Source: Plasmodiophora brassicae (lineage: Eukaryota > Endomyxa > Phytomyxea > Plasmodiophorida > Plasmodiophoridae). From it: 64,000 nt of DNA. Below are positions 17,838 through 24,215 of this stretch, one piece after another. The notes under the pieces are model-generated. The model had not been told where the DNA came from and made no database searches. It saw only the letters and a program-made list of their open reading frames with translations. Position numbers and translations under genes: made by a program. The stretch lies in assembly GCA_039704465.1 (NCBI GenBank), contig JASFAU010000007.1, positions 930,001 to 994,000 of the forward strand, written 5' to 3'. How positions within the stretch are numbered: position 1 is the stretch's first letter; the number at the start of each line of letters is the position of its first letter.

Positions 17838-18225
17838 GACGACTCGACCGAGTTTTCGCAGCCGCCTGCTCTACCTGCGCGCGGAGCATGCACTATCGGC
17901 TTATTGTGGTTGGATAAAGACATCTCGAACAGGACGCCCAGCTGCCGAAAAGAGCGATAACGACAGGGTCGGGTGTGTCGGAGGGGGCTGTCGTCCACAT
18001 TGTCGCCAGGCACTGCCTAGCGCTGGGTCTGATTTTAAAACATCAGGAGGTTCGTGGTTCGCGCGCTGTCGCTGGCATCCGAACCTCGTCGGGGGCAGCA
18101 GTCACAGAGTCACGTTGGCCCTTGCATCGAGCATGTGCCTGACTAGCGGCGGTCGTGTTCCGATTAGGTCGTGTTCCGATTAGGTCTGGGGCGGCGGTTA
18201 CATCCGGCACGGACGCGTTCCAGAC
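17838..18225. other. Intergenic region between tandem G-alpha genes
   Basis: 388 bp without a coding signal. It presumably holds the promoter of the second G-alpha gene and includes a 16-bp tandem duplication close to that gene's start. Confidence 0.5.
18151..18186. repeat. 16-bp tandem repeat upstream of second G-alpha gene
   Basis: GGTCGTGTTCCGATTA occurs at 18151-18166 and again at 18167-18182, followed by GGTC of a partial third copy. The copies are identical and end 40 bp before the ATG at 18226. Confidence 0.95.
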
Positions 18226-19740
18226 ATGGACTGCTGTGTCCGCTCACCTGATAGAGATCGGGATCGGGTTATCGCCAAGCAGATCGCTGTGGAACAGAGG
18301 GAGGCCAGTGAGGTCCCCCAGGTCCTGCTCCTCGGTACGGGGGAGTCCGGCAAGAGCACCCTGTTCCGCCAGCTTCGCCTATTGCATGGCGCGCCATACT
18401 CCAGTAAGGAGCTCGAGGAGTTCGCGCAAACGATCCGGACGATGATCATAGCAGACACCATCAGTAAGCGACATGAGACGTTGGGCTGTTCACTGGGATC
18501 GTGATTCGGCGCGCGCGCGCGCAGAGCTGGTGTCGATAGCGGAACTGTGTGCCGGAGGAGAGCCTCTGCCTCCTGAGGTGGAGCCAATGATGGCATGTGT
18601 TAAGGAACGACCGTCAACGCTGACACCAGAGCTGGCTGTGGCCATTGCTCAGTTCTGGGCGACTCCGTTAGCACAGAAGGTGACGGCGCACGACCTATAC
18701 ATGCCTGAGGGGTCCTTATCGCTTTGAATTTTGAAGGCGTACGACAACCGGTACGCACACCACCTGGGTGACCACCTGCAGGTGTTCCTGGACAAAGTTG
18801 CCATCATCGCCGAGCCGTCCTGGACACCGAGTCGCCTGGATCTGGTGAACTTCCGCGTACGAACGACCGGCGCCCTCGACCAGAAGATTGTGAAAGACGA
18901 CAAGAGTCGGTAGACGGTACTTGCGTCCGATACGAAACGGTCTGACTCGTGGCGGTGGCACAGGTATTCGCCTGGTCGACGTTGGCGGCCAGCGAAGGTT
19001 CGCCTTGCGGGACACCGAATGGAAATCGTTTGGATGCGCTGATGGCGGTTGGCCACAGTGAGCGAAGGAAATGGATCGGGCAGTTCTCTGGTGTTACTGC
19101 AGTGCTATTTGTAGTTGCGGCATCAGGTAACCGTGCCTTTCGTTTTACGCGACTGGTTCTGATCAACTGTCCTGTGCAGAATACGACCAGAAATGCTTCG
19201 AGGTTTGCTATCGACACCCCTATTGTGATGACTACGGGAGGGCCTAATTGTACCAAAGGATAATGCAACGAACAGGCTAGAAGAGAGTATGGCAGTGTTC
19301 AAAGAGATTGTCAACAACGAACAGCTGGCGAATGCGGGTCTCGTCGTCTTCTTCAATAAGACAGGTGGATCGTGGTCGGCGGCGGTGTTATGCAAACTGC
19401 CAGTCTAATGCCGCACCAGACATGCTGAAGAAGAAGCTGAAGACGATCCCGTTCAAGGATTACGTCCCAGCGTTTCCAGGCGAAAACTCGTTCGCGTCTG
19501 TATCAACATATCTGTCGAAACTCTACCAGGACATCGTCAGAGAAGCCCCCAGGCCGCCCGGCGCCTCAACCCGATCTGTCCAGGTAAGCGCGATCCGAGC
19601 CGCACCTCCGCCCGCGCCCCCTGATACCGGCCAAGGTCCACTTCACCACTGCCATCGACCCCGACAACATCGCGCTCGTCTTCGACGAAGTTACTGAAAC
19701 GATCATCAAGCTACGGTTAAGCGCCGCAGGGATCATGTAA
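18226..19740 (+). CDS. Heterotrimeric G-protein alpha subunit (second of a tandem pair)
   Basis: Paralogue of the gene just upstream with similar motifs: [41 protein letters not shown] joined by splicing to SERRKWIGQF, VVFFNKT, KTIPFKDYVPAFPG, and HFTTAIDPDNIALVFDEV. It begins MDCC (Cys pair, no MGxxxS) and ends SAAGIM, again without a pertussis-toxin Cys. Introns are short GT-AG; the one inside switch II (after GGQR) matches a split serine codon. Sequence divergence between the two genes is considerable in the helical domain and at the receptor-contact C-terminus, so they likely couple to different receptors or effectors. Confidence 0.92.
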
Positions 19741-19853: not shown

Positions 19854-20882
19854 ATGGCGGCGGGCGACGTGTCGCCTGACGACGGCGGGATCCTGTATGC
19901 GCTCGTGGCACGCGACACTGACGTTCTGGCCGAGTACGCCGCCCTGGGCGTATCCGGGAATTTTTCGCAGGTCACGCGCGTCCTGTTGTCCCGCATCGAC
20001 TCACAGAAGCAGGGCCCCGCGTCATATGTCTTGGATGGGTACGGCCGGCGGTGCGCCTGCGATGGCTTCGTCAGCATGATGGTCGTTGGCGTCAGGTACT
20101 ACTTCCATTACCTGATTTCGAAGGGCGTTACCTGTCTTTGCATGGCCGACCAATCGTGCCAGTCCCCTTTCGATTTTCTTGACGACATCAAAGCACGGTT
20201 TACATGTATGCCCGTGTATGGACATGTGTGCACGCGGCCGCTGCTCTGACGACCGTCCAGCTGCGTATGGGTCGTCTGCGAACACAGCGATTGCTTACGC
20301 GTTCAACGCAGAGTTTTCCAATGGTACCCCAGGTTGCCAGGGACAGTAAGTGTACACGCCAACGTTTGTCCACATGGTAGTCTTGCGCAACCGCATGGAA
20401 TACTTCAACAAGCTCAATCGGAGCCAGACGAAGATCAGTGCTGTTCAGAGCGAGCTGAATCAGGCGCGGAATGTCATGGTTAGCTAGTGAACGTCCGGCA
20501 CTGGGTGCACAGCGATGTGACGATATCCGCCTAATTGCAGGTTGAGAATATTGACCGGGTCCTGGAACGCGGCGACCGAATTGGTAAAACGGCACTTCCG
20601 CTGTGTGGGTTCACAGCACATTCAGCGGTACACTTAACAGAACTGCTGGTTGACAAGTCGGAGCGTCTTGACGCGAGCGCCTTGCAGTTTCGAAAACGAG
20701 CAACAGTGCTCAAACGGTTGGGTGTGGTCATCTGTGCTGTATTTGTTGGCGCTTACCTCGTGACCAGATCGATGTGGTGGAAGAACGTGAAAGCCGTCGC
20801 CTTAATGGTATTCGTCATCCTCGTAGTCGTGTACGTGATTCTGAGTATCGCCTGTGGCGGACCTGGTCTTTCGCAATGCTGA
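19854..20882 (+). CDS. VAMP7: VAMP7-type R-SNARE with longin domain
   Basis: Vesicle SNARE for fusion with lysosomes, late endosomes or the plasma membrane. The N-terminal longin domain begins ILYALVARDTDVLAEY and continues after an intron as YYFHYLISKGVTCLCMAD. The R-SNARE motif, pieced over three exons, reads KISAVQSELNQARNVMV|ENIDRVLERGDRI|ELLVDKSERLDASA with the zero-layer Arg. It is followed by WWKNVKAVALMVFVILVVVY, a single C-terminal membrane helix, and ends CGGPGLSQC as in VAMP7/VAMP72 proteins. In-phase splicing at each short intron supports the model. Confidence 0.9.
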
Positions 20883-21129: not shown

Positions 21130-24100
21130 ATGAAGCTCCTGGCCGACGTGACGCAGTCGTTCCAGGCCCACGACGACCACGAGCTGACGATCAAACCCGG
21201 CGACGTTGTCGAGATTGAAAGGCAGGACGGCCGGGGATGGTGGGAGGGTCGCATCCAGGGCGCCCCTTACAAATGCGGGTTCTTCCCGAGCGATTTCGTC
21301 GCGCTGAGGTCTGCGTCACGTCGCTGCCATGCCCATTTGTGCCCAGACTGACGGCTGATAGGTCGGATACGCAGTCGTTGCGTATTGAGCAGGACGCGGG
21401 CGGCGCTCTTGAAGTTGTCGGCCCCGCCGCTGAGCTCAGGAACTCGCAGACGCGATTCGGCATGTGGGCAAGCAACATGACCGTCGGGTGCTCTTTGAGC
21501 CTTATTGGTGCCGGCACCGTTGCGTTCTACTGGCTCGCCGCTGGTGGTGCGCCGTTGTTCAAATTCATCGATCTCGTTGTCGACATCTACGCCATGTTTG
21601 TCTGCCGAACTACTGCAACGTTCGCTGGCTGACTTCACCCTGGGCAGTGTCATCGGCACCGGGATAACAATCTACGAAGCCCGGTGGACGAGAAGGTCGC
21701 CAACGAACTTCCCGTGGCGCTCCATCATTTACACTGTGTTTGTTGGACCACGCCGTTGTCCGTCGCCTTTGTGTGCTCATGTCAAGTGTTCAGACTCGCC
21801 GCCCCGACCGTCTTCTCGATCACGACCCTGGTCCCAGGCGTGATGTTGGTGCTGACGGCGGCTGCCCACATGCACTCGTCCCTGAAGAGCGAAGTGTTTG
21901 TTCAAGAGTCCCGCAAGAAGCCGGCCAGCGCATCTGACGATACCTCTTGCAAGGTCCGGTTGTGCCTCCAGTTACTTTAAACGCAGGCTGAGTGTCTTCC
22001 GCATCGTAGAAACGGAGCCGTGGGTTTCTGACTAAGATCAGGGAAGATAACCAAGTCGGGGAGTTCGTCTGGCTGCTGCTGTGGATCGGCGCGAACGCAG
22101 CAATCTTCTTTTACGTCTTGTTCGTCTGGTTCCAGGCGATCGACGCCATGCCAGCGAACTTCGCCGCCTCGCAGTTCGTCGCCTGGGCGAAGGCCTGGGG
22201 TGGTGTTCTCGACTTCAACTGTGCTCTCATCCTGCTTCCTGTCTGTCGCACGTTCATACGGTACCTGTACGATCTGTCCACCCAATCCCAGGTCTGTGCC
22301 CCCGTGCAACGAATGTTAGAGGCTGTGCTTAGAGAGGCCTTTCAACGCAGACACGATCACAGCGGATCCTTCGACGCGTACTCGCGTTCATTCCACTTGA
22401 CAAGGCGCTGGAATTCCACAAGATGGTTGCCTGGCTGGTGCTGTTCGCCGGCGTCATGCACACGCTGGCCCACCTGGTCAATTACGGTCTGTCGCCGGAT
22501 TACACCTGGCAGTTTTACGGGATCTGGCCCTGGACCACTGGCGTCGGTATCTTCATCTGCATGATGTTTATGTACGGGGCCGCTCCGGCCAACGTCAAGA
22601 ACCACCACTTCGAGGTGAGTCTGGGCGACAGCCATTGGGCCCTGCCCGACTCTAATGCTGTTTGTAGATCTTCTGGTACAGTCACCACTTCTTCATCGGG
22701 TTCTTTGTCCTGTTGATCCCCCACGGGCGCGGTGGGTTCAATCGCAACGTCTGGAAGGGCTTGATCATCACCGTGCCCATCTACATCCTCGAGCGCATCT
22801 ACCGCGCGTCTTCGGCGTACCGAACCGTCGCCCTCACCAGCATCACAAACATGGGTCCTTTCTGCTGGCTTCGTCGCCATCGCGTGCCCTTTAACCTCCT
22901 GCGATAGGTAACGTCATCGCCCTTGCATTTGACAGGAAATCGGCGTTCCCGAACGGATACAAAGAAGGCCAGTACCTGTTCCTGAACGCACCCCATATCT
23001 CTGTCGGCGAATGGCACCCTGTATGTGTGTATTGCCCCGCGCTGTCGGTCATGCACTGACCGGCGAACGCCCCGCCCCGTATAGTTTACGATATCATCGG
23101 CGCCGCAAGAGCAGGATGTCACTGTTCATATTCGTGTGCTGGGCCAGGAGGACGGATCCAGCTGGACGGCCCGTTTGGCAGATTATTGCTCCATGCTGAT
23201 GCCCGCCAGAGCCTCGTTCGCCTCGTTCGTAAACAACAACGACCTGACGCGCGGCCGCGGCAAAGTCGTCGGCCCCGACGGTCGCAAACTGTTTCGAGTC
23301 TATGGGCCACATTCCGCACCGACCCAGCACGTCTCCGAGTACCTGATCGCGATGGTCATCGGCGCAGGTATCGGGGTGACGCCCGTGTGCGCCACTGTGA
23401 AGAGCATCGTCCACTATCGGTAGGGGTGGCGCGTACGAAACCGTGCCGGTGATCGGTAATAAGGTTGCCGCTGCAGATGGAAGTTCAGCATCGGGCGCTC
23501 GTACCCCGACCACGCCTACTTCTACTTTGTCGTGGCGTACAAGGAACTGGACTCGTTCCGCTGGTTCATCCGCATGCTGAAATCCGTCGATGACGAGGTC
23601 ACCTGGTGATCACGTTGCCGTCGTAGCGGCGCCGCCTGATTCGACCGTCTGTAGGCGCACAACCTGTGGGCGGCCAACCCCGAGATCGCCAGGACAAAGA
23701 CGTTCGAGTTCCACATCTTCGTGACGTCGGTGCCGGCCAACTGCCCGGCTCCGAAACCAATTGCGGTGCCTGGGCGACGGTGTCCCTGTGAACGTCGCCC
23801 ACATGGTCTGACTCTCTGTGCGGGTCCAGGTGGTCGACGACGACAAGTTCTGGGGCCCGCGCAACCTCGACGACAACGTCATGCGGGTCCGAGCGCCCTG
23901 GGACGAGATGCAGATGCTGATGCTGCTGAAGTGCCCGCCGAAGGCGACCACCGTACTCGGCAACATCCACGTACATAACGGGCGCCCGAACTGGGACGAG
24001 CACTTCGAGACGGTCGCCACCCGGCATGCCGCCAACGACATCGGTGTGGCCTACTGTGGCAACCCGTTCATCGCCAAAGACCTGCGATTGCAATGTGCTC

Positions 24101-24215
24101 GCTACAGCAGCATCAATTCCAAGACGTTCTTCCGCCTTCACAAGGTGATCCCGGCGCCTTCGCCGCGTCGTGAACCGGGTCTGACACTGTTGGCGAACGT
24201 TAGGAAAATTTCTGA
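21130..24215 (+). CDS. SH3-p22phox-NOX fusion: single-chain NADPH oxidase, about 800 aa
   Basis: Thirteen exons join without a frame break: 21130-21308, 21362-21595, 21648-21737, 21794-21953, 22010-22291, 22351-22614, 22668-22854, 22908-23020, 23085-23419, 23477-23597, 23655-23765, 23830-24144 and 24204-24215. Residues 1-59 are an SH3 domain (GDVVEIERQDGRGWWEGR, then GFFPSDFV). Residues about 90-205 resemble p22phox: TRFGMWASNM, IVIGTGITIYEARWTRRS and a last hydrophobic pair. From 222 on it is gp91phox-like: FHKMVAW with H at +14, YSHHFF with H at +13 (all four haem His), HPFTISSAP (FAD), GAGIGVTP, YCGNP, GRPNWDEHF and a terminal HKENF. The NOX part has no ATG before its first membrane helix, so the fused reading is the simplest. 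It should pass electrons from NADPH across a membrane to O2, giving superoxide. No EF-hands are present. Confidence 0.87.

Follow-up and report, generated by a model that had tools for sequence, protein, structure and literature searches.

Whether the catalytic subunit of an oxidase of reduced nicotinamide adenine dinucleotide phosphate (NADPH), its membrane partner p22phox and an SH3 docking module can be carried by one polypeptide is the question raised by a locus in the genome of Plasmodiophora brassicae, which is placed taxonomically in Rhizaria, Endomyxa, Phytomyxea. The locus lies at positions 21130-24215, on the plus strand, of a 64,000-nucleotide stretch (contig JASFAU010000007.1, positions 930,001 to 994,000), and this whole stretch is called the window below. 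An original prediction, made from the letters of the window, had joined an SH3 domain, p22phox and a catalytic NADPH oxidase (NOX) subunit in one frame. This is still the best reading, and a second gene of the same genome keeps the same order of parts. Judged from the two genes, the locus is very probably a single gene for an SH3 domain, a four-helix homologue of p22phox and a complete NOX2-like subunit, which together would make a single-chain NADPH oxidase.

The gene in the window and its paralogue

Reconstruction of the window gene from the raw letters gives 13 exons with 2403 coding bases, corresponding to 800 codons and a stop. The open spliced frame is observed directly, and its number of exons, its length, its junction intron and its ends agree with those given earlier. 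All 12 introns are GT-AG and 52-64 nucleotides in length. These sizes fit the organism, since the introns of P. brassicae are close to 60 base pairs in the published description, where genes have a mean of four introns of 60 base pairs each (PMC4471660). The models of this gene and of the second gene are both predictions from genomic DNA alone. The features of the window gene are as follows, with the helices of the p22phox-like part numbered M1 to M4.

21130..21308, plus strand: exon 1, SH3 domain, with residues 1-59 plus two bases of codon 60 (SH3_1, expectation value (E) 3.2e-8 over residues 11-54)
21309..21361, plus strand: intron 1, 53 nucleotides, phase 2, between SH3 domain and linker; GAG|GTCTGC...TGATAG; donor rank 7/221, acceptor rank 13/122
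21362..21595, plus strand: exon 2, linker (residues 60-88) and p22phox-like M1-M2; residue 89 begins at 21447
21648..21737, plus strand: exon 3, last part of M2, then Glu148 (equivalent to human Glu53), a short loop and Arg162 (equivalent to human Arg90)
21794..21953, plus strand: exon 4, p22phox-like M3-M4 (ending near residue 204), then the cytosolic tail; the alignment with human p22phox is collinear as far as residue 133
21954..22009, plus strand: junction intron 4, 56 nucleotides, phase 0, between the p22phox-like part and NOX; AAG|GTCCGG...ATCGTAG
22010..22291, plus strand: exon 5, NOX N-terminus and first helices, LDFNCALILLPVCRTF; matched to human NOX2 by phmmer
22351..22614, plus strand: exon 6, His338 and His352 (NOX2 His101 and His115), NOX helices 3-4; NOX2 alignment and Ferric_reduct
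22668..22854, plus strand: exon 7, His409 and His422 (NOX2 His209 and His222); NOX2 alignment
22908..23020, plus strand: exon 8, binding domain for flavin adenine dinucleotide (FAD); FAD_binding_8 464-539
23085..23419, plus strand: exon 9, remainder of HPFTISSAP and the NADPH-binding GAGIGVTP
23477-23597, 23655-23765, 23830-24144 and 24204-24215, plus strand: exons 10-13, NADPH domain to the C-terminal HKENF; NAD_binding_6 593-782

Four Pfam families match the chain above their cut-offs. SH3_1 scores 33.5 bits against a cut-off of 22.9 and locates the N-terminal SH3 domain, drawn at residues 1-59 in the original prediction, at residues 11-54. The other three, Ferric_reduct (residues 325-420, E 4.7e-11, 43.3 vs 28 bits), FAD_binding_8 (E 7e-12, 45.9 vs 22 bits) and NAD_binding_6 (E 1.4e-17, 64.6 vs 22.2 bits), follow one another in the order of the NOX family; searches for the first and the last of these had been proposed as a check, and both are over cut-off. 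No EF-hand or peroxidase-like domain is found among the Pfam matches of the chain up to E 10. Human NOX2 is the top match in the PDB, at 177.7 bits over four collinear stretches, with NOX5 at 124.4 and DUOX1 at 84.8 bits among the best 60 of 63 matches. Residues His338, 352, 356, 409 and 422 align with NOX2 His101, 115, 119, 209 and 222, of which His101, 115, 209 and 222 are the four haem ligands, located in helices 3 and 5. The NOX half also has HPFTISSAP, GAGIGVTP and the C-terminal Phe, and the claim of a complete NOX with four His, these two motifs and a terminal HKENF is in agreement with both the Pfam domains and the NOX2 alignment.

A search of the genome (25.34 megabases in 21 contigs) with the 800-residue chain finds the window gene, a paralogue on contig C4, and weaker NOX-only matches on contigs C3, C11 and C6. 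The paralogue (C4:971890-968780, minus strand) has 11 exons, 10 introns and 839 residues, and the same domain order is observed in it directly: an SH3 domain (SH3_1, E 5.3e-15, 55.2 bits), a four-helix part, and a NOX with its three domains over cut-off. The two genes are well diverged, with identities of 24/58 in the SH3 domain, 8/27 in the linker, 37/116 in the p22phox-like part, 11/33 at the junction and 310/570 (54%) in the NOX part, and none of the 10 paralogue introns coincides in place and phase with any of the 12 window introns. This diverged paralogue of the same order is the strongest support for a single chain, and a chance juxtaposition of the parts is excluded because the order is kept in it.

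Probable homology of the middle part to p22phox

The middle part of the chain is, with high probability, homologous to p22phox, as suggested mainly by comparison of profiles. A profile of the two paralogues aligned by hhalign to human p22phox gives a P value of 1.7e-5 and a score of 38.5 over 108 columns, which extend over human residues 3-133 from a start that places window residue 89 on human Gln3; the homology is directly observed at this profile level. The score is reached by none of 300 shuffled controls in which hydrophobic class was preserved (maximum 24.2), and 20 other membrane-like frames score at most 20.7, the control set being 22 frames from which the two belonging to the fused genes themselves were set aside. 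When the same profile is compared with 177,635 PDB sequences, it finds two matches at E <= 10, both of which are human p22phox (E 0.93 and 0.94). In 12 of the 108 columns the window gene, the C4 gene and the human protein share the same residue, including human Trp9, Ala10, Tyr41, Gly46, Glu53, Arg90, Pro100 and Glu129. Glu53 and Arg90 belong, along with Asn11, His94 and Tyr121, to a buried polar network of human p22phox that is mutated in patients with chronic granulomatous disease, according to the structural account in PMC9711523. Two of these five residues are identical in both paralogues (Glu53 as window Glu148 and Arg90 as Arg162). An Asn is also present one residue past the position of Asn11, and the replacement of His94 by Tyr together with that of Tyr121 by His or Asn reads like an exchange of partners. 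At one and the same threshold, the number of hydropathy peaks before NOX helix 1 is four in the paralogue and three in the window gene, compared to four in human p22phox.

Several observations weigh against this assignment. The cut-out window segment matches Cytochrom_B558a (PF05038) collinearly but below cut-off (E 1.8, 8.6 of 25 bits), so that the search proposed with the original prediction for this segment did not succeed, and the family is absent from the Pfam matches of the paralogue at E <= 10. The window segment alone has no match in the PDB up to E 10; the match of the two-paralogue profile is itself weak at E 0.93, and a third p22phox chain in the PDB, the 133-residue 8kei_A, is unmatched by it. 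The case needs both paralogues because the single segments score just 26.9 (window) and 21.6 (C4) against human p22phox, with reversed p22phox at 14.2. Of the polar network, Asn11 is replaced by Ser or Thr in the two genes, His94 by Tyr in both, and Tyr121 by His or Asn. The cytosolic loop from Glu148 to Arg162 has 13 residues compared to 36 in human p22phox, and the loop helix and polybasic stretch are missing. In the window gene, a single Pro and no PxxP motif occur in the tail (residues 205-238), while that of the paralogue has a few Pro and one PxxP (PALP) with no run of the animal kind, which may represent a weak tail ligand. From the alignments it could be deduced that the middle part falls short of a complete p22phox of the animal type, since it lacks both the proline-rich tail and the long loop with its helix. 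The refuting condition set with the original prediction, a middle segment with no significant match to p22phox, goes against that prediction for single sequences, with their Pfam E of 1.8 and lack of a PDB match, and is escaped only with the two-paralogue profile, through its hhalign score and shuffles.

The alternative that fares best is a fusion in which the four helices joined to NOX come from an unrelated protein, such as one of the COPI_assoc/Tvp15 type, and not from p22phox. The window segment fits COPI_assoc (E 4e-4, 20.9 of 30 bits, below cut-off) better than Cytochrom_B558a, and the paralogue segment fits Bestrophin (E 1e-3, also below cut-off); in addition, the genome holds four matches to the four-helix COPI_assoc family, on contigs C16, C8, C14 and C9, one of them over cut-off. 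However, the paralogue segment fits COPI_assoc at E 0.27 only, and the profile comparison favours p22phox, since pieces of three of the four COPI_assoc-like genes score 12.0-17.9 compared to 38.5 (the piece on C8 scoring 17.1 and the gene on C9 being left out). The shared residues are, moreover, specific to positions of p22phox, and the partner in the fusion is NOX itself. This alternative is consequently considered unlikely. The matches to COPI_assoc, TMEM72, Bestrophin and DUF996, all below cut-off, were judged to be membrane-protein noise after the shuffle and frame controls, and p22phox, COPI_assoc and TMEM72 may be distant relatives. No separate p22phox gene is apparent, a search of the genome with PF05038 giving one match on C14 with 16.2 of 25 bits; this negative is weak evidence because the exon-by-exon search also misses both fused copies.

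One gene or several

A second alternative is that two or three neighbouring genes, for the SH3 domain, the p22phox-like part and NOX, merely look joined. It could be raised because the gene models are known from genomic DNA alone, and in the paralogue a Met directly before NOX helix 1 (M281, in ...QNGMGTIIF) could act as a start. In the window, the p22phox-like frame, read unspliced, runs to 21980, and the NOX frame, which begins at 22010, has no Met ahead of its first helix, in accord with the earlier statement that the NOX half lacks an ATG there. In the 29 bases between the two frames there is not enough room for both a 3′ end and a new start, except in overlapping genes. The junction intron at 21954-22009 was likewise described correctly as being of phase 0 and as removing a stop, in that retention of its 56 nucleotides leads to an in-frame stop and a frameshift.

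The same alternative meets further difficulty in the paralogue, in which the three parts are kept in frame at a diverged locus with introns elsewhere. A single paralogue exon (residues 40-201) contains the second half of the SH3 domain, the linker and p22phox-like M1-M2, so the link between SH3 domain and p22phox-like part is independent of splicing in that gene. On the alignment of the two genes, 13 bases separate the introns at the junction of the p22phox-like part and NOX, which are in phases 0 and 1. Because of this offset, a stretch of four residues is continuous with the p22phox-like part in the paralogue and with NOX in the window gene, an argument that relies on a short overlap in an alignment of 33% identity. 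Splice sites were scored leave-one-out against the remaining 21 introns of the two paralogues. The window junction intron ranks 4/221 among GT sites as donor and 18/122 among AG sites as acceptor, and that of the C4 gene ranks 5/214 and 5/154; in both genes the junction sites are among the better ones. Some of the other introns have low scores, among them window intron 3 (donor 157/221, acceptor 72/122) and window intron 7 (donor 120/221), and it is frame and homology rather than splice strength that place their borders. Separate genes are very unlikely in our estimation, because adjacent genes would need to imitate these features twice over, and the earlier argument that they are hard to construct gains from a second locus with the same order and introns elsewhere.

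A pseudogene or an assembly chimaera, to which the degenerate SH3 ligand box of the window copy and several weak splice sites could point, is scarcely credible in view of the open 800-codon frame, the four His on the NOX2 haem ligands, the FAD and NADPH motifs, the C-terminal Phe, and an equally intact-looking paralogue on another contig, 54% identical in its NOX part.

Comparison with known oxidases and meaning of the probable fusion

In the human NOX2-p22phox complex, p22phox has four helices with both ends cytosolic, and M1 and M4 pack against NOX2 helices 3-5, as seen in the structural reports (PMC9711523, PMC9568551). A fusion is feasible without a change in topology because the even number of helices brings the chain back to the cytosolic start of NOX. 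The NOX half of the window chain is collinear with NOX2 from the first helix to the last residue and ends in the same C-terminal Phe, and the middle part aligns with human p22phox over all four helices; the differences are that two genes encode the human complex, whereas here one chain with an SH3 domain in front is found, and that window Lys282 stands in place of NOX2 Arg54. In the proposed working of the chain, the p22phox-like part would lie against NOX helices 3-5 in the manner of the human complex, and electrons would pass from NADPH to FAD, to the two haems and to oxygen on the far side. The chain could serve to produce superoxide, either at the surface of the plasmodium or within phagosomes.

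The control of the single-chain oxidase might differ from that in animals. The proline-rich tail of human p22phox binds SH3 domains of organizer proteins, as described in PMC2121648, and such a tail is absent from the window chain. A cytosolic activator with a proline-rich motif would instead dock on the SH3 domain of the core, in reverse of the animal arrangement. This is the simplest model because the proline-rich motif is missing while the SH3 domain sits on the core. The window SH3 domain retains the Trp-Trp pair and FPSDF. The ligand motif of SH3 domains is ALYDY, and this box is degenerate in the window copy (VTQSF), whereas the paralogue has ALYEY. Because of this difference, the two SH3 domains may bind different partners, or docking by the window copy may be weak. 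The loss of part of the ligand box is a point against the proposed single-chain oxidase, as is the failure to find a partner with a proline-rich motif in a search limited to PB1 proteins, which gave two matches. Neither match was accepted as p67phox, whose order of domains is not apparent in them by eye, and the two may be distantly linked to that protein. One of them, a 459-codon frame at C9:882017-885175 on the minus strand, shows an unusual mix by eye, in which TPR-like repeats and a membrane helix accompany the PB1-like stretch.

Regulatory modules on the NOX chain are also present in NOX5, RBOH and DUOX, although theirs are EF-hands, a domain not found here at the Pfam threshold given above. 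Fungal NoxA and NoxD/Pro41 are encoded by separate genes, and neither is known to carry an SH3 domain. They are similar to the window chain in that NOX has a p22phox-like small membrane partner (PMC9421330). A protist NOX chain with an SH3 domain is listed in a 2013 survey for Naegleria gruberi (model M17), whose SH3 domain lies within the C-terminal NADPH domain and for which the passage on this model mentions no p22phox part (PMC3591440), in contrast to the N-terminal SH3 domain and p22phox-like part described here. In mammals, NOX1-4 have p22phox in common on the membrane side. According to a 2022 survey, p22phox is confined, along with p47phox and p67phox, to opisthokonts having calcium-independent NOX (PMC9421330). 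A p22phox-like protein of Dictyostelium is a disputed earlier case outside opisthokonts (PMC2121648). A literature search, not exhaustive, found neither a natural p22phox-NOX fusion nor an NADPH oxidase of P. brassicae. In the main text of two P. brassicae genome papers and of a paper on phagocytosis in Phytomyxea, oxidase and NADPH terms are limited to a cytokinin oxidase, a sulfite oxidase and reference lists. Pattern matches numbered 19 when viral contigs were scanned with the p22phox-like alignment and 5 when prokaryote genome contigs were scanned with the paralogue, and none of them was confirmed as a relative.

Among the NOX-only genes of the genome, a ferric-reductase/NOX-like gene at C3:1792554-1793846 (plus strand; 431 codons) is 36% identical to chain residues 322-536 and shows no p22phox-like or SH3 part by eye, and a 1073-codon frame at C11 1912-5130 (plus strand) contains repeated DOMON-like segments, also recognized by eye, followed by a ferric-reductase-like part. 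Upstream of the NOX gene in the window, frames at 18184-19700 (plus strand) resemble a heterotrimeric G-protein alpha subunit, and directly upstream a frame at 20535-20882 (plus strand) is similar to an R-SNARE (VAMP-like) in its C-terminal part, membrane anchor included, both by eye. Elsewhere, two similar elongation-factor-like genes on C2 and C10 are presumably EF-like (EFL) elongation factors; the polyubiquitin units of the genome are separated by one Thr, a single residue at this place being a mark of Cercozoa and Foraminifera; contig C21 (114,743 bases) bears cox1; and no TTTTAGGG telomere repeat is present in the first 600 bases of the three nuclear contigs looked at, one end each.

The wider proposal, which we put forward tentatively and hold at somewhat less than even chances, is that Rhizaria possess a p22phox lineage existing only within a single-chain oxidase, in which docking is reversed, with the SH3 domain on the membrane core and the proline-rich motif on the activator. 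If this is true, p22phox would be older than opisthokonts or would have moved between eukaryotes, and the assembly of NOX with p22phox would be open to study, including structure work, in a natural enzyme of one chain with a fixed 1:1 make-up. The fused p22phox-like half without a proline-rich tail would provide a direct test of the role of p22phox in the absence of that tail. For P. brassicae itself, two genes each seem to unite oxidase, membrane partner and docking module, and a likely oxidase could now be named for an organism said to require a living host.

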